Positions 2,047 to 62,944 of a stretch of DNA of 64,000 nt are shown one piece after another. The stretch's first letter is position 1. Each line of letters opens with the position of its first letter. The notes under the pieces are model-generated. The model saw only the letters and a list, made by a program, of their open reading frames with translations. It had not been told where the DNA came from and ran no database searches. Source of the stretch: Sipunculus nudus. Taxonomy: Eukaryota > Annelida > Sipuncula > Golfingiida > Sipunculidae. The stretch spans positions 50,271,178 through 50,335,177 of the forward strand of contig CM049307.1 in the NCBI GenBank assembly GCA_026874595.1, written 5' to 3'. Position numbers and translations under genes: made by a program.

Positions 2047-2386
2047 GATGTTTCATCCAAAGAGCTGTCCAGGTATAGATTTAGCTTTTGTTGTCGGTCA
2101 AAGTAAAATATAATTAATTTCATACAGGTTGCATTGTCATTTTATTACCATAAATTTTATAATTTCTATAATTATAAATCAGTTCCAACAATATTGTAGA
2201 CTTAAAAAACACACATTCAGTTAGCCATTAATAAATTCAGTCGGACTGCCCTGACAGTTCTTGATATGCACACAATATATAAAGATTACCTTTTCTTATT
2301 CTGTCTATTGCAGTTTTATCAATTATAAATATAATGTCTCATTTGGTCGAATATGTGTACAGATATTTTGAGCAAGTGCTCGATAA

Positions 2387-2389
<3 letters not shown>

Positions 2390-2455
<66 letters not shown>

Positions 2456-2459
2456 GGGA

Positions 2460-2494
<35 letters not shown>

Positions 2495-2512
2495 CAGACA
2501 GACAGACAGACA
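2390..2512. repeat. (TA)n-(GA)n-(GACA)n compound microsatellite
   Basis: TA run to 2,452, GA run about 2,460-2,487, then four to five GACA units. All predicted peptides here are IYIY/RERE artefacts. Confidence 0.99.
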
Positions 2513-2700
2513 GAGAGGCAAACTATATTTTTGTATATACTATATTTATAAGAACATATTTCATACCATTTTTATGTACAAATGTACTTAAATGCAGGAG
2601 TATTTGTAGGCACACATGTATTATACATTAAACTTCATTCAAAGTATATATAATACATTTAACTTTACCAGCATTTTATAAGTTTAAATTTTTGTAGTAA

Positions 2701-2703
<3 letters not shown>

Positions 2704-2751
<48 letters not shown>
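2704..2751. repeat. (TA)n tract
   Basis: Uninterrupted TA run. Confidence 0.99.
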
Positions 2752-2753
<2 letters not shown>

Positions 2754-3099
2754 CGGTATATTCAGTAAGAGTGCGTGCATGGATGTTCTTACAAATATTT
2801 ATGTCTCTAAAGGCAATGCATGCATGCATACAGGTCTGGAAGAAATAGCCACAAAACATATTGATAAAGGACGGTCAGAACATGGGAGTATATGATTTGA
2901 CTATTTTTAACAGAAGGACTCATTCAGTGGTGTTTAACACTTGTTTATGGTGAAGAGCATTTGTGCTAATACCGAATTCCCATAAATGAACCAGGTGATA
3001 AAAACCAACTGGTCATGCCCGCATATACTACAATAAAGAGACCCCTTTTGTGCTTTTAGAGGCTGATTTAAGATGAACACGTACAGTGCCAGCATTTTC

Positions 3100-3760
3100 T
3101 GGAACACAAACGATAATTCTGTCAGGAAATCTTTATTAAAGATCCACTCATCCTAACCAGAAAATGATTTTAACATCTGTTCATCTCATCTTTTTGGACC
3201 GCCAACCAAACCAGACTATGCCCGCTTTTTCTTTTCTACCAGCATACCTCTCGAGCGGGTAACGTGTGAGGCAGCTTCCGTGTTTGCCCAGCAACTAACT
3301 CATTAAACAAACTGTGTTAATTAGAAGAGCAATATTGAAAGCTACGAGTGGCTCATGAGTTTCTAGACAGTTTGCTTTAAGAGCCTTCACTTGGCCTCCG
3401 GGAAATGTCGAGAGCCATCCAGGAATTATTAGTGCTTGACACGCTGCGAGTCGTTAGAACTTGAAGCCATCCGCTTGAGTGTTTTGGGCTTCCGCACAGA
3501 TTCAGTCTAGCTGGCTGGGGATGGGTTGCCACTCACTCACTGTGTTCCAGTCTCGTCTGTATGTCATTAAATCCAGCATAGGCTGAGTTCTTAAATATCG
3601 ACCCCCATGCATGCTTCACTGTAATTACCTATAGACGGTCCGGAAAGTCAGGTCGCCAGTCCATTAACAGAACAGTATCTCAGCACATGTCAGACTTTTC
3701 CCATCCATGTATAAAACGCATTTTCTTTACCCGTCAAACCTTAGGCCAAATTAATAATTA
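3100..3760. other. Less AT-rich unique island
   Basis: Non-repetitive stretch of more even base composition than its flanks, with homeodomain-type ttaattag at ~3.32 kb. No open frame of note. Could be a regulatory element. Confidence 0.3.
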
Positions 3761-35599: not shown

Positions 35600-35970
35600 A
35601 TGTATTAATCTGACGTTCGCGTCCAGCCAATCATTGATAACCTGTCTAAATGTATTTATCTGACGTTGCGTCCAGCTAATCGTTGATTACCTGTACATAT
35701 CTGTATCTATCTGACGTTAGCGTCCTGCCAATCGTTGATCACCTGTATATCTGTATCTACCTGACGTTTGCGTCCAGCCAATAGTTGATAACCTGTATAT
35801 ATGTATTTATCTGACGTTTGCGTCTCTGTATCTATCTGACGTTCGCGTCTAGCCAATCGCTGATAACCTGTATATCTGTATCTATCTGACGTTTGCGTCC
35901 AGCCAATCATTGATTATCTGTATATTTGTATCTATCTGACGTTCGCGTCCAGCCAGTCGTTGATAACCTG
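35600..35970. repeat. 50-bp tandem repeat overlapping the end of the aminopeptidase CDS
   Basis: About 7.5 units of ~50 bp share the core tctgacgttcgcgtccagcc and a tgataacctgtatatctgta stretch. Unit starts lie near 35,608, 35,659, 35,709, 35,759, 35,834, 35,884 and 35,934, with a truncated unit near 35,809. The highest-coordinate unit is the coding end of the gene, so the array looks seeded from the C-terminal codons and extends through the presumptive 3' UTR. Read on the minus strand, most units still spell a version of INDWxDANVR plus stop. Confidence 0.93.
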
Positions 35971-36078
35971 TTCGTTTCGCTCAAGCCACGCGATATTGTT
36001 TCTGATGCTACTGAGTGCTTGCTGGCGAGGTCTGGTGCCCGTCCCGGCGTCTGGATACTTAGCAAAATGAGCCTCCAC
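35932..36078 (-). CDS. Aminopeptidase terminal coding exon with stop
   Basis: 147 bp, 48 codons plus TAG, phase 0 start, acceptor cgcag. It encodes VEAHFAKYPDAGTG, then RQQALSSIRNNIAWLERN and the C-terminus INDWLDANVR, matching the G.G.R...QA.E....NI.W...N ending of M1 enzymes. The last ~35 nt form the first unit of a 50-bp tandem repeat that continues into the 3' region. Confidence 0.93.
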   Translation of the reverse strand: MEAHFAKYPDAGTGTRPRQQALSSIRNNIAWLERNEQVINDWLDANVR

Positions 36079-52000: not shown

Positions 52001-55000
52001 AGTTGCATGTATAAATATGACAGAAAACTATTAAGTAGGCCTATGTAAATTATACCCGCTTATTTTGCGTGAATAAGTTCTTGTATTCATTGCGTAACTG
52101 TATAGATATTGATAACCCATGAATAGCTTACATTTACATTCTCATACCACGAATTCACACACCCCACGATCTGCGTTTTACACAAAACCACGAAATTTAA
52201 AGCCCACGGTATTATCCGAATCTTCAGTATACGTGTATTATGATAACAAACTGATGAACATGAAATTTGCTTCAAGGCGGATTACTTTTGTGTTAACGTC
52301 GATAAGAGATAATTAATAATAAAACTGAAACACACTCTAATTCTGAGATAAAATAAATTCTAATATATATATAAGAGATACTTACTCTACACTTCTCATA
52401 GTGACTTCTTCCAAACAAGTAGATCGAGACGCCACCGACGGCGCCAGCGGTTGCGCTCCAAGCGACGTAATGGGTCTCGTCTTTCAAGTAGCGTGTCAAG
52501 TTCAAGGCCGTTGGGAAGTCTAGCTGCTGGGCGCCAGCGAGAGCGAAGGCATCACGAACCAGGTGTGCACGGTCTGATACGCTGAATACCTGAAGCAGCA
52601 GATAAACATCGCGAATTAGTTAAAACCATGAAGACCCATGTTTATTCTTTAAGAAATCAATTATTGTTTTCTTTGTAGCATTTATTTTTTATTTTATTTT
52701 GTAATATAGTATGGGTGATTTCTTACAGTGCACTTCAATTCGCATGTGATTAACCGTAAATCAACTAAATAAATTGCTAGTTATTACTCTTTAAAACAAA
52801 ATGTTGATTCATATTTTTGTCTTAATAATATCAACTTGCTGTAATTACACTATATACAAGAGAAAAACAAGTGACTTATAATAAGGGGAAATCCCGGAAA
52901 TCCCGAAAGTAAAGAATCTCTATTTTGACAGCAAATGAGGGAAAGGGACACATTTCATAAAAACGATTATGGCTGTATATACCGGGGCGGATACAGGATC
53001 ATAGAACGGTGTGTATGGGGGGGGGGGGGGGGGGGGTGAGCGCTCAACATCCTTGTACAGACAAACAAGTGTCCATGCCAGAAGTCCTACTATACTACAC
53101 TTTATACATATTTCTCGCACGCAGAATACATGTGATGAAAATGGTATCAAATGCAAAATCCGCCGTCGTTTTCCGGTATTAATCGTATTTTATTTTTTTT
53201 TTTTTGTTGGAAAAAATTGGACACCCGCCCCCTGCGCCCCCCCCCCCCAATGCGACCATGATTTAACTACATGAACTTCGGATGCTGCTGCTGTTCCTAC
53301 TATAGCTGTTAGTACTACCACCACCACAACAACAGCTACTACTACTACTACTGCAACTCTAACTCCTCCTCCTACTACAACTACTAATACTCCTACTACT
53401 GTACCGTATAACGCCACATGAACTTAATTTCAATTTACCTTTAACATTTTAACATAAACATATTTTTCACATCTTTGATGTGAATTTTATATTTCTAGAA
53501 CAATTTTCTAAATTCTGGAACGACAGGTTGTGGGATGTACCGGTCTATGTGACGTAAGTATGTAAAGATGAATATGCATATAATGACTAAGAAATCATGG
53601 GAAGTATGACGTCATACTGTATGACTGTTAAGCAGCTGGTTAGCGAGGCTTGTCCACATGGGCTTGTCGTAGTTCACCCGGAAGTAGCAATGCTGGCGTC
53701 GGTTGAATTTGATCCAGCTTCCGGGGTTGTTAATGGTGAAATCCAAGCCTTAAAAGAAATAGTCAGTAATAAGCAAAAATTGTTATCTTTAAATTTGTTA
53801 TGATGTAAAATGGATATGTTTTAATAGTAACATTGCAAAAAATAAACCCCTTTTAGGTGGATTAATATTCCATAGCCTTCTGTGACTTGTGTCTAGTGAC
53901 GACAAGCCTGGCATTTTAGTTTTAAAGCCTGCTATTTGCCTAACTTTTCTATAGGATTTATGTGCTCTCTGGCTTACACTGCGTACATGTCAATGCACTA
54001 TAGGTAAGTCCTGTTAAGAAACGTTCTTATAACGCTTCAGTGAGGGCTTTTTATCTACAAGCTATAAATAAATAGCAATGTTAACAAACAGAAAAACCAT
54101 GTAACCCATGTCGGTGGTAACATATCAAATTGAAAGGTCATTAGTTACGAAAAGCCCTTTGAAAAATTTGGTTTGTCTGAGCTGCAACCAGATTTCCTTG
54201 TTCAATTAGTTTGAATTATTTTTGCGGGCCCCCACATTTTATAAACAGCCTTTGTGCACTAGGATCTGTGTTTTTGGGACTATGTTTTTCAAAGATCCAA
54301 GGGGTTATCTTTAAGTAATATACGTCTGTTATCGTAATAGGCCCTTTTAAAATTCCGAGCATCCTATGGCGACCTCTTTTTCTAAATTTGTGGAAGTTAC
54401 CCTGTCAGAATCATTCACTTACTATCAGTCCGGTTCATCCAGATAAGGCCTTCAGCGCCGTTCTCTGTTGTGTAAGTCAGTGGCACATACCATTTGTACC
54501 TTAAAAAAAGGCATTGCATATTAACTATAGCGCTATCACAAGGACAGAAATGTAAGAAATGTAGCCATTATATTGTATGCTGAAGAAACCCCTATATACA
54601 AACATGGAATTAATACACCAAGTGGGGAATATGGAAAATAAATGTAAAAAAATTTTGGTGAAAAATAATGTCTCCATGAAATATTTTTTAGTGAGTATTC
54701 CTATGACGTATTCATTTACAATTATAAGGGCCCCGCTTGAAAAGCGGTGCGTTATAGCGGTCGTCTTGTCCGTCCGTCCGTTCGTCACGGACACGTTCTT
54801 TCGCGCGAAATATCACAAAGACGATTTACTGGATCTTCCTCAAAGTTACAGGGATGATTGTTGCCAATGAGGGCTCCAGCCCTATCACATCACAGACTGA
54901 TCTGAATTTCAATATGGCCGCCAGAGCACAATCAACGATTTTATTCGGGCGCTATATCTCAAAGAGAATTTGCTTGATCTTTCTCAAATTCACAGGGATG

Positions 55001-55313: not shown

Positions 55314-58300
55314 CCCCCCCCCCATGATATATATCTAGTATGAATAAACTAGACGTACTGGTATGGTGAGTCAGGCTTAGACAAGTCGTCGTTAGGGTTG
55401 GCCATAAACCTCTTCTGTCTAGCCGTGACCTCAGCATTCACGCCGTTCATGGTGACGCTGACGTCAACCACAGGAAACCCCATCTGATACACCCACGGGT
55501 CCATCACGGTCTTAATGTTCAGTTTGTGTCCTACAACCTGTCAAAGTACATTTTTAAATAGATAATTAAATATTAATTGTGAGAGTGGAAATATTTCTAA
55601 AGAAACATCCTGTGGATGCATGCATAATTGATTGAAAAAGGAAGTAGACAATATAAAAACAAATGCTGTATCATTAATATTATGCTTTCTTGGTGTCAAA
55701 GTTTGTTTTGCATAGGGTTTGCCTGAAGTTAAAGATGTTTCATGCTTAAAATTCTTATTATAATACATGAGATTTCCATATTATGTATTTTTTGTTGGGT
55801 TGAACCGGATATTTTTCATCTCAGAAGTCCAATCCTTTAAAATGTGGAAATAACTCTTTTAACTAGAAAAAAAACATTAGTTATATCATATTTAGAATAT
55901 GATATATATAATTTGAATTTTATTTTTGTTTCTTAGAATAATGTTTATAAATTTATAAATTCAATCATGACATTACAATACATCAAGCCACCTATAATTG
56001 TTCGCTCAATGTTTCCACCAAATCCTGACTTTTCGAAATGTGTTTCGTGTATACTTATTGTTACAGATGTCTGTTTTATTGTGAGCTGTTGACATGTCTC
56101 TTTTATTGTGCGCTGTTGACATTCTGATTTGTGTTTGGCTCAAGCCCTGGGCGTTGCTATGCTACGGCGTTCCTTGTTCTAGATGGCCGGGTGCGGCCAA
56201 CGTGTAAACACAGCGGTCATGCTAGTCTTGGGCTTTCTCACCTGGCCGAGCCGGGCCTGCCCACGTGTAAACCCTAATATGTAGAAACACAACATTCGTT
56301 GTTCTAGATGTTTCCTGTAACGTGTGTATTATAAAGTTCTTTGGACTGTTCGGGAAATGGAAAGTTCTCGGCTTGGGGTGAAAAGTTATAAATATGAGGC
56401 TGTGTTTTAGACCCGAGACAGAGGAGAGAAAAATTCCAGCGGACACAGAAGAGTGCGTGTCAATTTGAAGACCTTTTCCGATAATTGCGGCAGTTATTCA
56501 CTTTTGAATTACAACGGATTGATTTTGTGAATGAACTGGACTGTTATTCTCTGAGAAGATTTATGTGAAATGTTCATCTTGATTGTACGTTATAAAGGAC
56601 TTGTTGTCGCTGTGGCAGTGGTGGTATCCTGGTACTGTACACTTTATTTATACACTTGTTACTGTTGTACTGTTGTTATACTGTATAATTGTATTGAAAT
56701 AATGTATTGTAAAGCTAGGGTTGTTTTAAGAATAAACTATAATAATTTGTTAACAAAACACTGACTTCTTTATTCATTCCCCTAGACATTTCACGCTGCC
56801 TAGTGTTGCAGGATCTGATTTTTTTTATCTCCATTACAGGGTTTGTGTTCGTCACGGCTACGTGATCTGTTGATATTGGGTTCCGTAACAATATGTATTA
56901 CATAACTTAATCTTATGTAAAAGGTCTAACTTGTGTACCCCCGCCGTGGGGTCACTCAACATACACACACAGAGATCCATAAACATTATAGTTTTCTTGA
57001 TCCTCAAGACATACAAGTACTGATGATACCGACACTAACCTCGTTGAAGTCCGCCCACATCTGCTGGGTCGTCGCCGTTGAGTATTCGCGTTTCCTTAGA
57101 TAATGCTGAAAGAAAGAACGGCCACAGACAGTTTATTAATCAGAAACAAATCTCGAGGACAGGGTTTATTTTAAAGAATATTTATAATATTTTTTATATG
57201 AATAGTATCACTGAATTATGAATGAAAAGATCACAAATCATATATAATTATTTCAGCGAGCTCATACTCAGACTCATATCCCTACTAATATGTGTGAGTT
57301 ATCGTTATAATTCATTAATTGTAGAAGTAGTTTTCAGTCCGTGACTAAAACAAAAATCTGCAAATTATCCATTTCAAATGCCTGTTGAAATATACCCTAT
57401 CCAAGGACTACAAAAGTTACAATGTTAGAGAAGCATTCAAGTAGTAGTAATGTACACGACGGAGTGACGGATATAAGATAGGCAGAAAAATCGTTCTGTT
57501 GTTCGTCGTGACGGTTTGTCTCATATACATAGGCTTTGGAGCTGGGGGTTGCGGGGGGGGATTGGCAAAAGGGGGTGCAGTCTTTGCAGTCTCTGCAGTT
57601 TGTTGACAGGTTAAAGGGAGGCTTTTCCTATGAAACTTTGTTTCTAAAATTGTCATATCAGGTGCAAAAATCCAGTGTCTCTTGTAATTTAGATCAGTAC
57701 AGTACTGTGCGATTCGTAGATGCAATGGATTGAAATATAATGTAGGTAAAATTGTAGGAAATACATACATCATGCTAAATATCTAATTTGGTCACTTTAA
57801 GACGAGTCTGCTTTGGAATATAACAATTTTAGAGTATAGGACAAAGTGTAATTATATCCTTTAATTCTGGCCAGTATTCCATAAACTGTTCATATTCATA
57901 TGGATTTGATACTTACATCTTAAATTTCATATAGGCCTAAGTGTGAAAATGGTATATCCATTGTCTCTCAGTATATTTGTTTCATGCTTCATATGACATG
58001 CAGTTTTTAGCACTGAATTTTAGATTAAAAATTCGAATCTGCTTCATTTTCTTCTGCATCCAAGGCATATTATTATGCTAATATACCGTCCATGAATTAA
58101 AGCGGGATTTCTCGATTTCACATATTAAACACTGAATGGTCACTGGATGATATTTAGTTGAGTTAACGCCATAATTGACAACTACCACAATTCTAAACAT
58201 ATTCGTTTGCTTTCGTGTCTGGGTAAATCAAATCAATGTGAAATTGTAATGTCTTGCGATTACAAACTTAATTTACTCGTGTATATGTTCTCGTCTTCAC

Positions 58301-59028
58301 GGCGCATATGGAGATATTAAGAAACCACGAATTAAGAATAGACAGTATTAAGAAATTGGGGTATTTAATTGAAAAATAACTAAAACCAGAGGTTCACATA
58401 GCAATGAAACGTTCCCAGTGCTTTAAATACTGCTTGCTGGTGATTATGTTTGCAGGGTTTTTTTCATTACATTGGTTTCTGTACTATCATCTGCTCTTCA
58501 TTTTCATAGTAAGAACCGATCTTACCCGAACGCATTCCCGGAAGTCATCGGGACCAAGGAAAGCTCGCATCATCAAAAGGATGGATGACCCCTGAAACAA
58601 AATACCATATATTGTTATTTGAAAAGTATATCCTGACGTCAGAACAGCTTTAGGTAATATTCAGACTCTATTTACCATTCTCTGTGATCAGTACAACACC
58701 AAAACAATGCATGTGCAACTAGATGTATGCAATCGCCAAGCGAACACTAGAAGCCCTATAAATCCCCCCCCCCCCAACAACACTTTTTAGCAAGTGGATG
58801 GGATGGTAAATGTAATCAGCCCCCTGTTATTCAGAGAAAAATATTGGTATATAGGAAATGAAAGATATTAATAATTAGAATTACAGGACTTTGGTTCCAT
58901 TTCTATGTTTACTATGAAATTTTAGATATTTTTACCTGGTTTAGAATTAACATATACCTGAAACATTCAGCCTTATTCTTTTTTTAAACCTTACACTTAA
59001 TTGTAATATATTTGGAATGTGTTACACA

Positions 59029-59070
<42 letters not shown>

Positions 59071-62000
59071 TAGTTGATAACTTTCCCACTCCGAGGCATC
59101 CCTAAAACCATTGGAGACTCAAAAAAAAAACCTTTTTTATATAAACCATTTTTATCCTCCTATAGCCTTCTTACCTTACTGTAGGTTATACCATCAAAAA
59201 CAGAATTGATAGAATCCGGATGGTTCACTTCTATTACAAGGGGACGTGATGTGTTGAGGGCATCCGTTCCCATGATGCTGTTCACTGTTCCACCGGGATA
59301 TTCCAACTGAAGGGTTAACAGGATTTCCATTATACCAGGAAGCAAAAACACACAATCAAACATTCGTTTTATTCTTCAGCTCCAGCAACCACACAACCCT
59401 AAGCGTTCTGTTTTACAACAAATTTCCTTGTTTTTAGCTAACCATGTGATAACGTAATACATATTATGATTAAAAACGCATTCATATACATTGTGGTTTT
59501 GATACTATTATATGACTATTATATAAACATGTTGTACAACAATGACAGAATAAGACATATATACAGAAGTTTTCAAATGACAAGAGCAGAACGTGTAGCA
59601 GAAAGACCAATATACTTATAATTTGTTTCCGTCACCACACAGAAATAATAAAATTAGAATAATCGCTTCCCGAGAGAGAGAGTTCCATTGATAAAAACGG
59701 ATAAGTAGCAGTAGTTTGTCCTACAATATATAGATGGCGCCACCACTGCTACCTTTAACAAGCACATTTGCTAAGTTTCAGGAACAAACATCTTTCAGAA
59801 TATATAAAAATGTAACAATGAAAAAAAATCAAAATTTATGCAATCACATTGTATCGTAAAATATTCATTATGCAAACAGTCAATTTATATTTCGTATTTC
59901 ATCTGCAATCATCAGGCATAGTGATATTGTTGATAATTTTGTTTTCCTCATCACAAGGATCCGAGGTAATGTATTTTCCGCGTCGGTTGGTTACTTGGGT
60001 GGTTTGTATGTTAGCAGCCCAAACCCAAATGATCTTATTTTGATACATTATATTGATCCAGATTAGTGTTGATTGATTGTTTATTTGGTGTTAACTTAGC
60101 CCTCAACGAAATTTCGTTAAAACCGTTTATAACTTTTTGCATAATGTTTTTGAAGGACAAACCAGCTAACGTGACCAACGGACAAAGATACTACCTCGCC
60201 ACCAGACGCAAATATAACAATGATTATCTTTTATCAGTATACGTGTAGTCTATTAGTAGATGGAACAGGTTACATAGAATCACCCACAGAAACCGACGAA
60301 ATGAAGACCATGTGTTAGCTGTAGAAGAGAAGAAGGCTGTAGGTAAGCAGGAGATGACGTCATCAGGCGGTGGCGTCTGGTATATAGGCTCTTGTATAAT
60401 CGGCGTAATCCAGCAGTTAGTTACGTTACAGGGTCAAAAGGGGGTAATATGAGGGTAAATGTTACTTGTAACGTTGGAAGTTCACGTAAATATTGTTGTA
60501 AAGTCCGAAGAGGGATAACATGCAGGGAAAAGATTATGGGAGAAATAACTTTAGCTCGTAATAAATTATGAGAAATGTTTATGGAAACGGGGGTGCGTGC
60601 TGGCTCAATAACATCCTCAGTAATTTTTGTTCTGCCTCCTTTTTGTTACATTATACAGCAGAATAAAAGTTCTTTGATATAAATCTAAAAAGATGATAAA
60701 TGTATAGATAAAGCTAGGAAGGAAAAGACATATTCACCGGAGGGTAAAATATTTTAAAGCAGATATGTTATTACATATCTTGCATGATAAAATAAAGTCA
60801 GTCATTGCAATTAATTTTGAAACATCAATTGATTATTTAATTCAAGGAAATATATTTTTCAACTTCCAAAAAGATCTCATGAGTATATGAATTTTTCCTG
60901 TCCGGAAAATCATACTCTACAAAGTATTTACTTGGCACATTTATATAGTTTTCTGAAATTATAATTGTTGATGATAAAAGGTTCAGGGGTAAAGCAGTAT
61001 TGAGACAAATAAGACTCAAAATATCAAGGAGAATAAGATGTTAATTTTTTTGCATTAAAATGATGAGTTAATGATCGTCGTTGCTGGCCATGGAGTTGGA
61101 GGAGGGTTGGGGGGGGGGGGGGGGGGGGGAGGTTAATGAGAAGGGAATCTATCTATGGCAGTTAGCAGGGTACGAGACCAGGGTAAGGGGTCAAGGTCAC
61201 CACTTACCATATCCCACGTGGGTTCTGAGTAGTTCACGGAAAATCTCGAATATAAACTCGCGTATCCTTCATTAAGCCAGATGTCGTCCCACCAGTGACA
61301 CGTCACAATATTGCCAAAGTACTAGACAGAGAGAACCAGAGACAGAAGATAGACAGACAGCAGTGACAAGAGACAGAGCAACAGTGCTTGTGTGCTACCA
61401 TGACACCTAGCGGCAGTCAGAGAGACCAAACCTGCAAATATGTCGGGATCACTGTAAGCGTCGTCAAAATTTTATCTGATTTTTGTATATAGGTTAATAT
61501 TGACTTTCCAACAAACACCCTGTGAATAATAAGGTGACAGTATTGGTTGGAAGTGTAATATGCACACCTTCATATAGTTCAAGGTAACTATAGTCCGTTT
61601 CATCCCCTTATGTCCACCTGTTTTTTTGCTATGAAAATATTTAATAGTTACATTTCAAAGGAAAAAAATTGTAGTGTAGAGTAGAGGATTAAAGGACCTA
61701 ATTTTCAACAAGGTAAATAAATACCTACCTTACACCTTATTTAAGGAACAGAATTATTTGAAAATATGAGAAATAAGTCTACATTTTACATGTCAGACCC
61801 ACTTATGGCGGTCAAGGTCATTGGTCACATGCAAAAACAGCCTCAACTGACAGCTTCTGATTGGATGATGTCATGTAAATACTCTAAAAAATATAACCAG
61901 CTAAAACAAAAATGGCTACTTATTGAGAGACATAACGTATCTGCCAGATCACAGTGAAGTGACTAAAATGTTGTGAAACATAAATTGGCGATTTATTGTA

Positions 62001-62944
62001 AAATTCTTAATTGCCATATTAGGTTGTCACTTCCATATGTTGTTTTCTTGGAAATTATTGAAAAATATAAACTTTTAAGTAAACCATCTACAAAAAAACA
62101 TGTGGATGGCAGTTGGTGAAATGGACTATAGTTTTGATTAATTTCCGTTATGACATTTCATCAATTGATCATTTGAGACTAAAATTAATATTTGTGATAA
62201 ATTTTCATGTTGCATATGATTATATTTTATATATCAAGTCGTTATGATACACCAAATAATCTACGATCACTTCCCATGAGCTTCTAAATCTTGATGACGC
62301 TTCCACTGATATTCCTTTCCATACAAAGAGCTTCTACTGTACACAGGTGCTTAAATCCCTATAGTTGTATCTGACTCTACCGGGTAATGATAATGATCAG
62401 TTCGGTTATTGATTTGATGCAAATGGGGTAAAATATTGGACCGTATCCTTGGCAAGCATGATGATTTTATATTAAGACACGCGGCCAACCATATCTGCGC
62501 AGCGGAACGCAGTGGCATAAGGTTCCGTGTATGATCAGCCATAACATGAGACGTCCTCGATTTTCGGTAAAGCTAAACCTTCGCTTGCTGAACAAGAATA
62601 TAATTTCTTGTATTATCGTCCAACGCAGATGTCGCCTTTCCAGGCTTTTCTATTTATTACATATTGATTTTGTTATTATTAATTATTATTAATTTTCCCC
62701 TTTTGCCTCTATTTGTAACAAAACTCATTTATTTTCACTGTACTTAATTAAGTCAGATCCGTTTATTGGGAATAAAAAGCACCTATGGACAGTATTGATA
62801 TAATTTATATAAAATAGAACAAATTTATACCATGTCCCAGTCGGGTTCAGATACATTAACCGACAACTCCTCATAAAAGCTGGCGTAGCCCTCGTTCAGC
62901 CATATATCGTCCCACCATTCACATGTTACCAGGTTCCCAAAAAA
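35932..62944 (-). CDS. Aminopeptidase N-like M1 zinc metallopeptidase, C-terminal half, multi-exon (5' part beyond the window)
   Basis: Fifteen GT-AG coding segments on the minus strand can be recognised. Using one of the two alternative catalytic exons, 14 segments join in phase to 1695 nt (564 residues plus stop). Family knowledge: M1 aminopeptidases remove N-terminal residues from peptides, usually as glycosylated ectoenzymes. The product starts right after the expected HELAHQ zinc motif, carries the third zinc ligand in WLNEG and the catalytic Tyr in TYSKG, then a beta-sandwich segment (WIKFN...YFRVNYD) and the alpha-helical ERAP1_C-like domain to the end. The length from HEXXH to the C-terminus fits vertebrate aminopeptidase N. 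Several N-glycosylation sequons (NTS, NRT, NLT, NGT, NVT, plus NVS/NYS in the alternative exons) suit an extracellular enzyme. The N-terminal domain, any membrane anchor and the promoter lie above 64,000. No AATAAA was seen on the minus strand close below the stop; the nearest is at 35,100-35,105. Orthology to a named vertebrate gene is not claimed. Confidence 0.93.
36470..36551 (-). CDS. Aminopeptidase exon (SFGRMVPNMVARF)
   Basis: 82 bp, completing an Arg codon then 27 codons, phase 0 end, acceptor tacag, donor CAG|gtaaat. It encodes RSFGRMVPNMVARFKNKFRL, matching the F.LGR.I......F.T...L segment near the C-terminus. It is too short to stand out as an open frame and was found by following the phase. 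Confidence 0.88.
36599..36672. repeat. (TA)n tract in an aminopeptidase intron
   Basis: About 37 TA units, the longest in the window. It lies about 50 bp from the acceptor of the exon at 36,470-36,551, so it is in the branch-point zone. Confidence 0.99.
37834..37974 (-). CDS. Aminopeptidase exon (VREQDFFTVVSYV)
   Basis: 141 bp, phase 2 to 2, acceptor tcacag, donor AG|gtaaat. It encodes YVREQDFFTVVSYVSATDVG and VAWDWVREHYDQL, the family's IRKQD...V......G....WDFV motif. Confidence 0.94.
38561..38640. repeat. 20-bp tandem repeat abutting a splice donor
   Basis: Four consecutive 20-bp units (38,561-580, 581-600, 601-620, 621-640; consensus acaggaagtaaacatttacg) end exactly at the exon border 38,640/38,641. 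On the minus strand the units begin GTACGT (the donor used), GGAAGT, GTAAAT and GTAAAT. Confidence 0.9.
38641..38820 (-). CDS. Aminopeptidase exon (NLRALVYRIGMEATGG)
   Basis: 180 bp, phase 2 to 2, acceptor ttctag, donor AG|gtacgt. It encodes SPNLRALVYRIGMEATGGET, EWDIMWERYL and GLASTRTAWLLQ, the P.LR..VY..G...GG..EW and L...W.L motifs of the helical domain. The Cys residues that vertebrate enzymes have at these two motifs are absent. The donor abuts a 20-bp tandem repeat. Confidence 0.94.
40540..40641 (-). CDS. Aminopeptidase exon (LLRSTVISVAC)
   Basis: 102 bp, entering in phase 2 and leaving in phase 2, acceptor ttcag, donor AC|gtaagt. It encodes LLRSTVISVACGNGNSACLQ and a WLED helix. The two Cys, six residues apart, match the first ectodomain disulfide of vertebrate aminopeptidase N. 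Confidence 0.93.
40900..42070. repeat. Partial copy of the 47.5-48.9 kb element
   Basis: It is co-linear with 47.79-48.87 kb, including the landmark acctcagttgactttcagtc. The segment ggtggcgcca..actagtcatggtcaatattc (41.63 kb) is repeated in degenerate form at 41.97 kb. Inverted termini were not found here. Confidence 0.7.
42590..42840 (+). repeat. Dispersed repeat, copy A (see 58.78 kb)
   Basis: The segment shares, in order and orientation, caatgtaatc, gctattcagag, gaaatgaaa.atatta, aattagaatta, ccttggttc, ggtttaga.ttaac and cttaattgtaatat with 58,780-59,030. A polyC run precedes both copies. Confidence 0.75.
42971..43011. repeat. PolyA tract
   Basis: A9-gt-A30 ending 21 bp before the 2.3-kb TIR element. 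Confidence 0.97.
43033..45341. mobile_element. 2.3-kb element with inverted termini and internal ~330-bp tandem units
   Basis: The left end reads gcttgccggaattcgg and the right end gattccggcaagc, giving a 12-bp terminal inverted repeat (GCTTGCCGGAAT). The right end also forms a hairpin with gcttgccgaaatc just inside. From ~43.2 to 44.45 kb there are about four ~330-bp units (the 'gttatggagaagac' landmark recurs near 43.26, 43.59, 43.92 and 44.25 kb), each with a GCGCC(C)CCTAGCGGCC-type motif. A diverged two-unit block follows at 44.65-45.3 kb. No protein-coding frame is visible, so it is non-autonomous. AAC flanks both ends and could be a 3-bp target duplication. Confidence 0.65.
45873..46180. 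repeat. 112-118-bp tandem repeat, about 2.7 units
   Basis: Units start with tagatt(t/c)tatt at 45,873, 45,985 and 46,103. Each contains agctagttg..gggttat and a cgtccttggctgccatattt core. A further degenerate core occurs at ~45.71 kb. Confidence 0.85.
47190..47470 (+). repeat. Dispersed repeat, copy A (see 54.1 kb)
   Basis: It shares gaaaggtca..., ccagat..ccttgtt.aatt, gcgggcccc.acat and a gggatta/gggttat block with 54,110-54,370, in the same orientation. Confidence 0.7.
47549..48897. mobile_element. 1.35-kb TIR-like dispersed element
   Basis: The left edge reads acctccaccaagg and the right edge gcttggcggaggt, an imperfect inverted pair (about 11 of 13). The interior from 47.79 kb on is shared with 40.90-42.07 kb in the same orientation (ggatatgtttat, gtcctttgacctcat, ggtggcgcca, acctcagttgactttcagtc). 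A SINE head is nested at 47,965-48,041. No coding frame. Confidence 0.6.
47965..48041 (-). mobile_element. SINE head-only copy nested in another repeat
   Basis: Reverse-complemented, it matches the tRNA-like head of the 20.9-kb SINE (agccgggagatcgtgag and ctcagccgaggcgg are shared). The B box is mutated (gtttgcatctc) and the GC-rich body is absent. An A-rich stretch follows the head directly (t-rich on the plus strand, 47,935-47,960). It interrupts the 47.55-48.90 kb element relative to its relative at 40.9-42.1 kb. Confidence 0.8.
49345..50400 (+). repeat. Dispersed repeat, copy B, apparently interrupted
   Basis: Left part (49.34-49.6 kb) and right part (acactggcgcatgtacc, 50.37 kb) match successive parts of 27.88-28.2 kb. 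The 49.74-50.3 kb stretch between them is a GC-richer, unrelated insertion. Confidence 0.5.
51188..51261 (-). CDS. Aminopeptidase exon (KYLRDMSAPIMDRLG)
   Basis: 74 bp, phase 0 to 2, acceptor cacag, donor AA|gtaaga. It encodes KYLRDMSAPIMDRLGV...HLE, and the split Lys codon is completed by the next exon 10.5 kb downstream. Confidence 0.92.
52386..52589 (-). CDS. Aminopeptidase exon (VSDRAHLVRDAF)
   Basis: 204 bp, 68 codons, phase 0 to 0, acceptor cttcag, donor AGA|gtaaga. It opens with VFSVSDRAHLVRDAFALA, the SDRA.L..DAF motif that begins the ERAP1_C-like helical domain, followed by YLKDETHYVAW and GRSHYEKCR. Confidence 0.95.
53281..53402. repeat. Degenerate (ACT/ACC)n trinucleotide tract
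   Basis: Runs of cta/act/acc/cct triplets in an aminopeptidase intron. The Val-rich frame on the minus strand is an artefact of this repeat. Confidence 0.93.
53618..53748 (-). CDS. Aminopeptidase exon (WIKFN...YFRVNYD)
   Basis: 131 bp, starting by completing a Ser codon and ending in phase 0, acceptor tttaag, donor ACA|gtatga. It encodes NPGSWIKFNRRQHCYFRVNY then a helix ending LLNSHT. In most relatives the strand reads W.K.N..Q.GYYRVNYD; here Gly is replaced by Cys. Confidence 0.93.
54110..54370 (+). repeat. Dispersed repeat, copy B (see 47.2 kb)
   Basis: Counterpart of 47,190-47,470. It sits between the aminopeptidase exons at 53,618-53,748 and 54,423-54,499, ending about 50 bp from the latter's donor. 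Confidence 0.7.
54423..54499 (-). CDS. Aminopeptidase exon (YKWYVPLTYTT)
   Basis: 77 bp, phase 2 to 1, acceptor tttaag, donor A|gtaagt. It encodes YKWYVPLTYTTENGAEGLIW, the family's W.VPL.Y.T motif, and an NRT sequon. Confidence 0.93.
54728..55166. mobile_element. 439-bp TIR element (Harbinger-like MITE candidate)
   Basis: GGGCCCCGC at 54,728-54,736 and GCGGGGCCC at 55,158-55,166 are perfect 9-bp inverted termini, flanked on both sides by TAA (54,725-54,727 and 55,167-55,169). A TWA target duplication is typical of PIF/Harbinger elements. Inside, a ~120-bp segment (catgatt..agggatgattg..atggccgcca) is present twice as degenerate direct repeats. It is located in an aminopeptidase intron. Confidence 0.7.
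55254..55323. repeat. (CT)n-polyC tract in an intron
   Basis: About 27 CT units followed by a run of about 13 C, 35 bp beyond the donor of the exon at 55,359-55,537. Confidence 0.98.
55359..55537 (-). CDS. Aminopeptidase exon (MDPWVYQMGFPVV)
   Basis: 179 bp, phase 0 to 2, acceptor gacag, donor CA|gtacgt. It contains TVMDPWVYQMGFPVV, the classic M1 'MDTWT.Q.GYPV' motif, followed by RQKRFMANP (the QxRF strand motif). A (CT)n-polyC tract lies just beyond its donor in the intron. Confidence 0.95.
56059..56890 (+). mobile_element. Probable solo LTR
   Basis: The 832-bp interval begins TGTTAC and ends GTAACA, the inverted dinucleotide-type ends of LTRs. It is less AT-rich than its surroundings, contains TATAAATA at 56,387-56,394 and AATAAA at 56,731-56,736, spaced like an LTR promoter and polyadenylation signal, and has a GT-rich stretch after the signal. 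No second LTR, primer-binding site or convincing 5-bp target duplication was found, so the borders are tentative. Confidence 0.45.
57040..57105 (-). CDS. Aminopeptidase exon (HYLRKREYS...MWADFNE)
   Basis: 66 bp, 22 codons, phase 0 to 0, acceptor tttcag, donor GAG|gttagt. It encodes the HYLRKREYSTATTQQMWADF segment, matching the YL...Y.NA...DLW motif of M1 enzymes. Confidence 0.9.
58526..58591 (-). CDS. Aminopeptidase exon (GSSILLMM...FRECVR)
   Basis: 66 bp, 22 codons, phase 0 to 0, acceptor tttcag, donor CGG|gtaaga. It continues TYSK with GSSILLMMRAFLGPDDFREC, the family's KGASVLRML...LG.. FR helices. Confidence 0.92.
58780..59030 (+). repeat. Dispersed repeat, copy B (see 42.6 kb)
   Basis: Same block of landmarks as copy A at 42,590-42,840, in the intron between the catalytic-tyrosine exon and the next aminopeptidase exon. 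A (TA)n tract follows its right end. Confidence 0.75.
59034..59067. repeat. (TA)n tract in an aminopeptidase intron
   Basis: Short TA run about 110 bp from the donor side of the catalytic-tyrosine exon. Confidence 0.98.
59175..59306 (-). CDS. Aminopeptidase exon with the catalytic tyrosine
   Basis: 132 bp, phase 0 to 0, acceptor ttcag, donor AAG|gtaaga. It encodes LEYPGG..., then GTDALNTSRPLVIEVNHP and ends FDGITYSK. The tyrosine of TYSK(G) corresponds to the transition-state-stabilising Tyr of M1 aminopeptidases (FDxISYSKG in the family). Confidence 0.93.
59307..61207 (-). other. Aminopeptidase intron
   Basis: No coding segment found. It holds a ggcgccaccactg repeat relic (~59.74 kb) and a G21 run at 61,109-61,129, about 80 bp from the donor of catalytic exon version 2. 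Confidence 0.6.
61208..61321 (-). CDS. Aminopeptidase exon, catalytic version 2 (YFGNIVT...WLNEG)
   Basis: This exon has the same length (114 bp), the same phase (0 to 0) and the same borders as the exon at 62,831-62,944. The acceptor follows a pyrimidine-rich tract (ctctctgtctag) and the donor is strong (ATG|gtaagt). It encodes WWDDIWLNEGYAS identically but differs at 9 of 38 residues, including Tyr for Phe at position 1, His for Glu at position 9, and the SRF/EEL segment after the zinc ligand. It joins in frame to the exon at 59,175-59,306. Confidence 0.9.
61322..62830 (-). other. 1.5-kb intron between the two catalytic exon versions
   Basis: No other exon (in particular no HELAHQ-type exon) is seen on the minus strand. 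Just upstream of version 2 the intron is purine-rich on the plus strand (61,322-61,385), that is a long pyrimidine tract on the transcript. Confidence 0.65.
62831..62944 (-). CDS. Aminopeptidase exon, catalytic version 1 (FFGNLVT...WLNEG)
   Basis: The exon is 114 bp (38 codons), phase 0 to 0, with acceptor tttcag and donor ATG|gtataa. It encodes the FGNLVT strand, then WWDDIWLNEGYAS, and ends EPDWDM. The Glu of WLNEG is the third zinc ligand in M1 enzymes. The first residue is Phe where most family members have the Trp of HQWFGN. A second copy of the same exon lies 1.5 kb downstream at 61,208-61,321. The donor (gtataa) is weaker than that of the second copy (gtaagt). No other exon lies between the two copies, so they appear to be alternatives within one gene rather than parts of two genes. 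Confidence 0.9.

Follow-up and report, generated by a model that had tools for sequence, protein, structure and literature searches.

The exon pair and its gene

The window analyzed here is a stretch of 64,000 nucleotides of the Sipunculus nudus genome (C2:50271178-50335177). Its minus strand carries part of a gene for an M1-type zinc aminopeptidase, in which the exon that follows the one encoding the HELAH motif is present in two adjacent versions. We refer to the 5′ copy as exon A and to the 3′ copy as exon B (Table 1). Exon A is translated into FFGNLVTCEWWDDIWLNEGYASFYEELSVNVSEPDWDM and exon B into YFGNIVTCHWWDDIWLNEGYASLYSRFSVNYSEPTWDM. Both encode the part of the M1 peptidase that holds the third zinc ligand, residue Glu18 of the exon, and each exon alone matches Pfam Peptidase_M1 (E = 4.9e-12 for A and 2.3e-11 for B). 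The two copies share 29 of 38 residues, while 36 of their 114 bases differ, 6, 5 and 25 of these at the first, second and third codon positions. The codon differs at 17 of the 29 identical residues and, in the common core WWDDIWLNEGYAS, at 8 of 13. The first-pass annotation of this stretch had given the coordinates, strand, 114-bp length, 0-0 phase and splice dinucleotides as we find them, and its figures of 29 identical residues and eight synonymous codon differences in the core were correct on recounting. The nine differing positions are 1, 5, 9, 23, 25, 26, 27, 31 and 35. From A to B, the changes of charge type are E9H, E25S, E26R and D35T, which shift the net charge by about +5, and the remaining changes are F1Y, L5I, F23L, L27F and V31Y.

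Table 1. Features of the M1 aminopeptidase gene (window coordinates) and of the coq-2 exon pair (contig coordinates)
Feature	Position	Strand	Remarks
Exon A (5′ copy)	62831-62944	minus	114 bp, phase 0-0, 38 residues, FFGN...WLNEGYAS...DM
MITE-like element in the A-B intron	61586-62133		548 bp, terminal inverted repeats of ~43 bp
CU-rich tract upstream of exon B	61322-61391	minus	71% pyrimidine over 70 nt; candidate regulatory element, putative role
Exon B (3′ copy)	61208-61321	minus	114 bp, phase 0-0, 38 residues, YFGN...WLNEGYAS...DM
Shared next exon, LEYPGG...FDGITYSK	59175-59306	minus	phase 0 in
Shared exon, GSSILLMMRAFLGPDDFRECVR	58526-58591	minus	spliced alignment
Shared exon, HYLRKREYSTATTQQMWADFNE	57040-57105	minus	3′ border set by hand
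Shared exon, VVGHKLNIKT...SPY(Q)	55359-55537	minus	phase 2 out; 3′ border set by hand
Shared exon, YKWYVPLTYTTENGAEGLIWMNRTD	54423-54499	minus	5′ border set by hand
Shared exon, LDFTINNPGSW...LLNSHT	53618-53748	minus	spliced alignment
Shared exon, VFSVSDRAHLVRDAF...DETHYV	52464-52589	minus	in the ERAP1_C domain; 3′ border provisional
Likely last coding exon, ...WLERNEQVINDWLDANVR, then TAG	35932-36078	minus	weakly supported
coq-2 exon (L050)	C10:12260552-12260683
Second coq-2 exon copy (L051)	C10:12257067-12257201		57% identical, 3.4 kb away

With 100 kb of flank added to the window, 164 kb were examined in total, and a single M1-type HEXXH exon is found there. It lies at window coordinates 65865-65711, about 1.7 kb past the window edge, and its 3′ end encodes HELAHN and is followed by the donor gtaagt in phase 0. 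The first-pass annotation had expected this upstream exon to read HELAHQ, which has to be amended. Its claim that the copies belong to one gene rather than two stands, as a second HELAH exon was sought by a motif scan of the minus strand, by the family profile over the genome (1.43 Gb in 153 contigs) and by tblastn over the 164 kb, and none was found. Motif scan, profile and tblastn likewise detected neither a further M1 exon nor a relic in the stretch from A to B. These results support a single M1 gene with one HELAH exon and two alternative versions of the following exon.

By spliced alignment, the exons are open and joined at GT-AG junctions over the range 88178 to 52464; with weaker support, the model continues through five further exons to a stop at 35932. 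In this gene model no exons are assigned between 52464 and 40652, and the borders at 59306, 57040, 55359, 54499 and 65711 were set by hand. Either isoform, with A or with B, is free of stops over the 622 residues encoded from 88178 to 52464. The zinc site HELAH-X18-E is formed in both isoforms by the HELAHN exon together with A or B, and the Tyr in the following LEYPGG exon is presumably the catalytic Tyr of M1 enzymes. When compared as products of 485 residues, both isoforms cover positions 2-218 of the 218 of Peptidase_M1 (PF01433), with 219.5 bits for A and 216.7 bits for B, and the neighboring M1_N and ERAP1_C domains (PF17900 and PF11838) are above cut-off, as partial matches, in each. 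A shortened product without the exon scores 135.4 bits for Peptidase_M1 and a product with both A and B 248.2 bits in total, each in two stretches; these products are of 276 and 352 residues, respectively, and stop about 15 residues short of where the M1 match ends, so their scores are not strictly comparable with those of the two isoforms, and the A+B product scores higher because the repeated piece is counted twice. The closest solved chain to isoform A (485 residues) is that of human glutamyl aminopeptidase (4kx7, E = 1.8e-127). At the GXMEN position the shared HELAHN exon reads GATEHWG, in which the Glu is kept and the Met and Asn are replaced; MENWG is found in all 23 other multi-exon hits, and TENWG and LENWG in two single-frame genes.

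Paralogues and the ancestral exon

The family profile identified 67 exon-level M1 matches in the genome, and we fetched 30 paralogous loci (L019-L048). In 21 of the 30 loci, the exon after the border between HELAHx and XFGN is 114 bp long between AG and GT. All counts over the 38 residues use these 21 exons, L031, L035, L042 and L043 having been dropped because their exon ends are unlike in length and L044-L048 because they are differently built. Locus L041 has no HELAH exon in its 7 kb. The identical length, phase and borders of the pair, to which the first-pass annotation had pointed, are indeed present, but they are ancestral among the M1 paralogues and not peculiar to A and B, and any copy of the exon would have them. 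Each of the 30 loci has exactly one FGN-type match (E <= 0.01) in the stretch that was read, and two copies appear, within the limits of this search, in the A/B gene only. Genome-wide, no processed form of the A/B gene was detected; among 31 scored candidates, the best exon match other than A and B was 63%.

Eight positions are invariant among the 21 paralogous exons (G3, N4, V6, T7, W10, W11, E18 and A21), and neither A nor B shows a change at any of them. Residue 1, described earlier as Trp in relatives, is Trp in 20 of the 21 paralogous exons and Phe in the remaining one; it is Phe in A and Tyr in B. At position 9, 16 of the 21 have Asp or Glu; A has Glu, and the His of B is found in none of them.

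Two of the loci (L045 at C1:43555873-43556544 and L046 at C4:48748236-48748898) carry M1 genes that each consist of one open frame, 1290 and 1292 residues long. They have long N-terminal extensions that resemble MAM domains by eye, WIKEG replaces WLNEG in them, and they are possibly retrogenes.

Origin, age and selection

In a tree of 23 rows (the two copies and the 21 paralogous exons), A groups with B as its sister, with support of 96/92 for protein and 100/97 for DNA over few columns (38). The branch leading to B is longer than that leading to A, both for protein (0.39 vs. 0.056) and for DNA (0.49 vs. 0.23), and A is nearer to the M1 family than B. Ser28 and Ser32 are common to A and B and occur in none of the 21 paralogous exons, which speaks for duplication within the gene after its split from the paralogues. 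Judged by sequence comparison, A and B are neighboring homologues whose lengths and phases are compatible, and each is nearer to the other copy than to the paralogous exons. The duplication event is old, since synonymous sites are saturated. At least 40 other near-full-length copies of the MITE-like element in the A-B intron are present in the genome with 89-94% identity (40 scored of 3560 first-look candidates), and this level of identity suggests that the element is probably younger than the exon pair.

When 36 random changes were applied to A, the best runs kept 22 residues (5000 uniform runs) and 24 residues (5000 transition-biased runs). The 29 identical residues observed were never reached, so the similarity of the two copies is not due to chance. 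With 18 random changes on B, at most nine residue changes and no stop were obtained in 1.4% of runs, and with 24 random changes in 0 of 20,000 runs.

We further fitted a three-sequence codon model, without an equal-time constraint, with L020, L019 and L034 as outgroups. A neutral B fits nearly equally well with L020 (−346.71 vs. −347.10) and L019 (−354.76 vs. −355.17) and worse with L034 (−342.40 vs. −346.87), and a neutral A costs 0.3-2.3 in log-likelihood. Given the saturation, branch-wise selection without equal times is indecisive. Equal time is a reasonable constraint, as a single event in one gene gave rise to both copies. When it is imposed, with four outgroups, neutrality costs B 15.2, 12.9, 16.6 and 12.1 log units; for A the cost is 18.4, 22.2, 17.8 and 26.8. 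Several branch lengths lie at their bounds in both sets of models, and omega values are unreliable. The earlier view that both copies are old and kept by purifying selection agrees with the saturated synonymous sites and with the rejection of neutrality given equal time, but neutrality is mostly not rejected without that constraint. Taken together, purifying selection is likely on both A and B.

Splicing signals

Exon A is preceded by the acceptor atgtttcag and followed by the donor gtataa, and exon B lies between tctgtctag and gtaagt. The difference in donor strength that the first-pass annotation had noted is also seen among 54 comparison donors, of which the weak donor of A exceeds 5 and the strong donor of B exceeds 52. 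In an acceptor matrix trained on the family, B falls below all 36 training sites and A above only 8 of the 36. This counts against B, although the matrix is biased by the TGG with which most paralogous exons begin. The CU-rich tract upstream of exon B contains 11 CU-type motif hits, and the maxima among 36 comparison acceptors are 70% pyrimidine and 6 hits. In other animals, PTB-like repressors bind tracts of this kind.

Double inclusion of A and B and double skipping are both in frame, so decay of frame-shifted mRNA cannot enforce exclusivity. The A-B intron, with 1509 bp, or 961 without the MITE-like element, is too long for steric blocking. Both donors are GT, and no U12-like motif was seen by eye. 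In a scan for RNA pairing between the flanking introns, with poly-G/C runs masked and the MITE-like element omitted, the best energies were −35.6, −34.1 and −36.4, compared with −36.2 to −40.5, −33.2 to −40.0 and −36.6 to −41.6 in five shuffles. Pairing is thus not above that of shuffled sequences, and no steric, U12-type or RNA-pairing device for exclusivity was found. The longest intronic inverted repeat (61586-61628 and 62091-62133) was considered as a pairing device and rejected, as it consists of the ends of the 548-bp repeated element.

A coq-2 exon pair in the same genome

One exon on contig C10 (L050; Table 1), which we take to be an exon of coq-2 and which has a UbiA match nearby, has a second copy on the same contig. 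The UbiA matches are at C10:12268496, above cut-off, and at 12265204, below it. One copy of the exon reads TLNWG...IYSHQ and the other TFNWG...IYAHQ. In helminths, annelids and mollusks, coq-2 is reported to have a pair of active-site exons that are mutually exclusive and are told apart by a change of Phe to Leu and of Ala to Ser, and exchanges by splicing within the catalytic core of an enzyme are described as rare (PMC7434440, in excerpt). The C10 pair is consistent with these published marks of the rhodoquinone-type exon, as matched without an alignment to the C. elegans numbering. By analogy, this genome would hold at least one pair of a kind that is exclusive elsewhere and that resembles the M1 pair in anatomy. 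Such a pair would also suit a mollusk or annelid host.

The coq-2 gene region (L049, reverse strand, ~2126-3150) also contains a tandem minisatellite with copies spaced by multiples of 47 bp and with long open frames (CCMFCDCSVFLGASYNVVCSV...). Intronless UbiA-family genes of 296 aa with identical scores occur in 12 places on contigs C61-C66, C69, C72, C75, C89, C90 and others, and the same small contigs carry a second UbiA-family set of 351-364 aa. These contigs look bacterial and may represent a symbiont, in several copies or strains, within the animal assembly.

Probable alternative use of the two exons

We consider it probable that A and B are tandem-duplicated alternative exons of one M1 gene; that both are used, and one at a time, is what we infer. 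In the mechanism we propose, the exon after the HELAH exon would have been duplicated in tandem in a single M1 zinc aminopeptidase gene, and the transcript would run from HELAHN through one of the two copies into the LEYPGG exon. Each copy would supply the third zinc ligand, Glu18, and complete the M1 domain, and both products are thus predicted to be zinc enzymes. Since the nine differences between A and B miss the eight invariant positions, zinc binding should survive in both. The choice between the copies would most likely be governed by splice-site strength together with trans-acting factors, A having a weak donor and B a strong donor behind a CU-rich tract of the type bound by PTB-like repressors. 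Given the changes of charge and of other residues in B, it is probable that substrate preference, stability or regulation is not the same in the two forms.

The clustering of M1 genes in this genome would suit a remnant of two tandem genes, in which one copy comes from a separate or fused gene, but with one HELAH exon, one LEYPGG exon and no M1 exon or relic between the copies, this origin is largely refuted within the 164 kb and very improbable. One copy, more likely B, might be a relic that is no longer spliced, so that the gene runs on A alone. The longer branch of B, its lowest place in the biased acceptor matrix and the failure of two of the three outgroups to reject a neutral B when equal time is not imposed would all fit such decay. 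Yet B retains an open frame, canonical AG and GT and a donor above 52 of the 54 compared, it is unchanged at the eight positions invariant in 21 paralogous exons, and given equal time its neutrality is rejected by 12.1-16.6 log units; we therefore regard a relic as unlikely.

It may also be that A or B is an optional extra, and that some mRNAs carry both and encode a protein 38 residues longer, possibly inactive and regulatory. The phases permit A and B together in frame, the intron between them is long enough for ordinary splicing, and neither a structural nor an RNA device for exclusivity was found. Such a protein would repeat the middle of the catalytic domain, however, which Pfam then matches in two stretches, and the coq-2 pair of similar anatomy is exclusive in the species studied (PMC7434440, in excerpt). 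We hold inclusion of both exons to be less probable than a relic, and alternative use of A and B one at a time is the reading we retain. By analogy, exclusivity and a switch of specificity are plausible. A more specific proposal, that the gene encodes a splice-controlled M1 metallopeptidase in which the swap of the zinc-ligand exon, with a shift of about five charge units, would alter the peptides trimmed, much as quinone synthesis is switched by coq-2 splicing, is put forward as tentative and rather doubtful.

Were both exons in use, a single gene would yield a pair of zinc aminopeptidases with nine differing residues around the metal site, and with it a natural experiment on substrate choice by M1 enzymes. 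Under the more specific proposal, this would be the first M1 enzyme we know of in which splicing changes the catalytic segment. The M1 family in this genome is large, clustered and diversified by gene duplication; the A/B gene would show exon duplication instead.

Comparison with known systems

The A/B gene has the same domain order and HEXXH-X18-E zinc site as glutamyl aminopeptidase, ERAP1/2 and aminopeptidase N. It differs from the M1 family here, which has one exon version per locus at 30 paralogous loci, in its two versions and in its GATEHWG and HELAHN. In the open-access full-text literature searched, which covers few subscription journals and includes PMC9741552, PMC11266112 and PMC7434440 in excerpt, no description of an M1 exon swap was found, and the M1 splice variation that does appear in the abstracts concerns ERAP2 haplotypes and not an exon swap. 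Tandem-duplicated alternative exons such as A and B are thus apparently undescribed for M1 enzymes in the open-access literature searched.

Among other enzymes, human KHK has a duplicated exon beside its ATP site, with the catalytic arginine in both versions (PMC9741552, in excerpt), and in this it is like the A/B gene. KHK is a kinase with known transcripts, whereas in the M1 gene the swapped exon itself carries the metal ligand, which is likewise present in both versions. For CYP4F3, the choice of splice form is reported to alter substrate specificity (PMC7434440, in excerpt), but this enzyme is a tissue-specific P450 and not a metallopeptidase. Similar too is coq-2, a polyprenyltransferase gene, in which, according to the same excerpts, the neighboring homologous exons 6a and 6e exchange the active-site core, as A and B would do. 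The a-form of coq-2 resembles the general family and the e-form is distinct, which parallels A and B. The coq-2 enzyme is unrelated, its exclusivity is known from RNA data and its product switch from exon deletions in C. elegans (PMC7434440, in excerpt), whereas for the M1 pair exclusivity and a switch are proposed by analogy. Within this genome, the two M1 exons are more alike than the two coq-2 exons (76% vs. 57%) and are equal in length.
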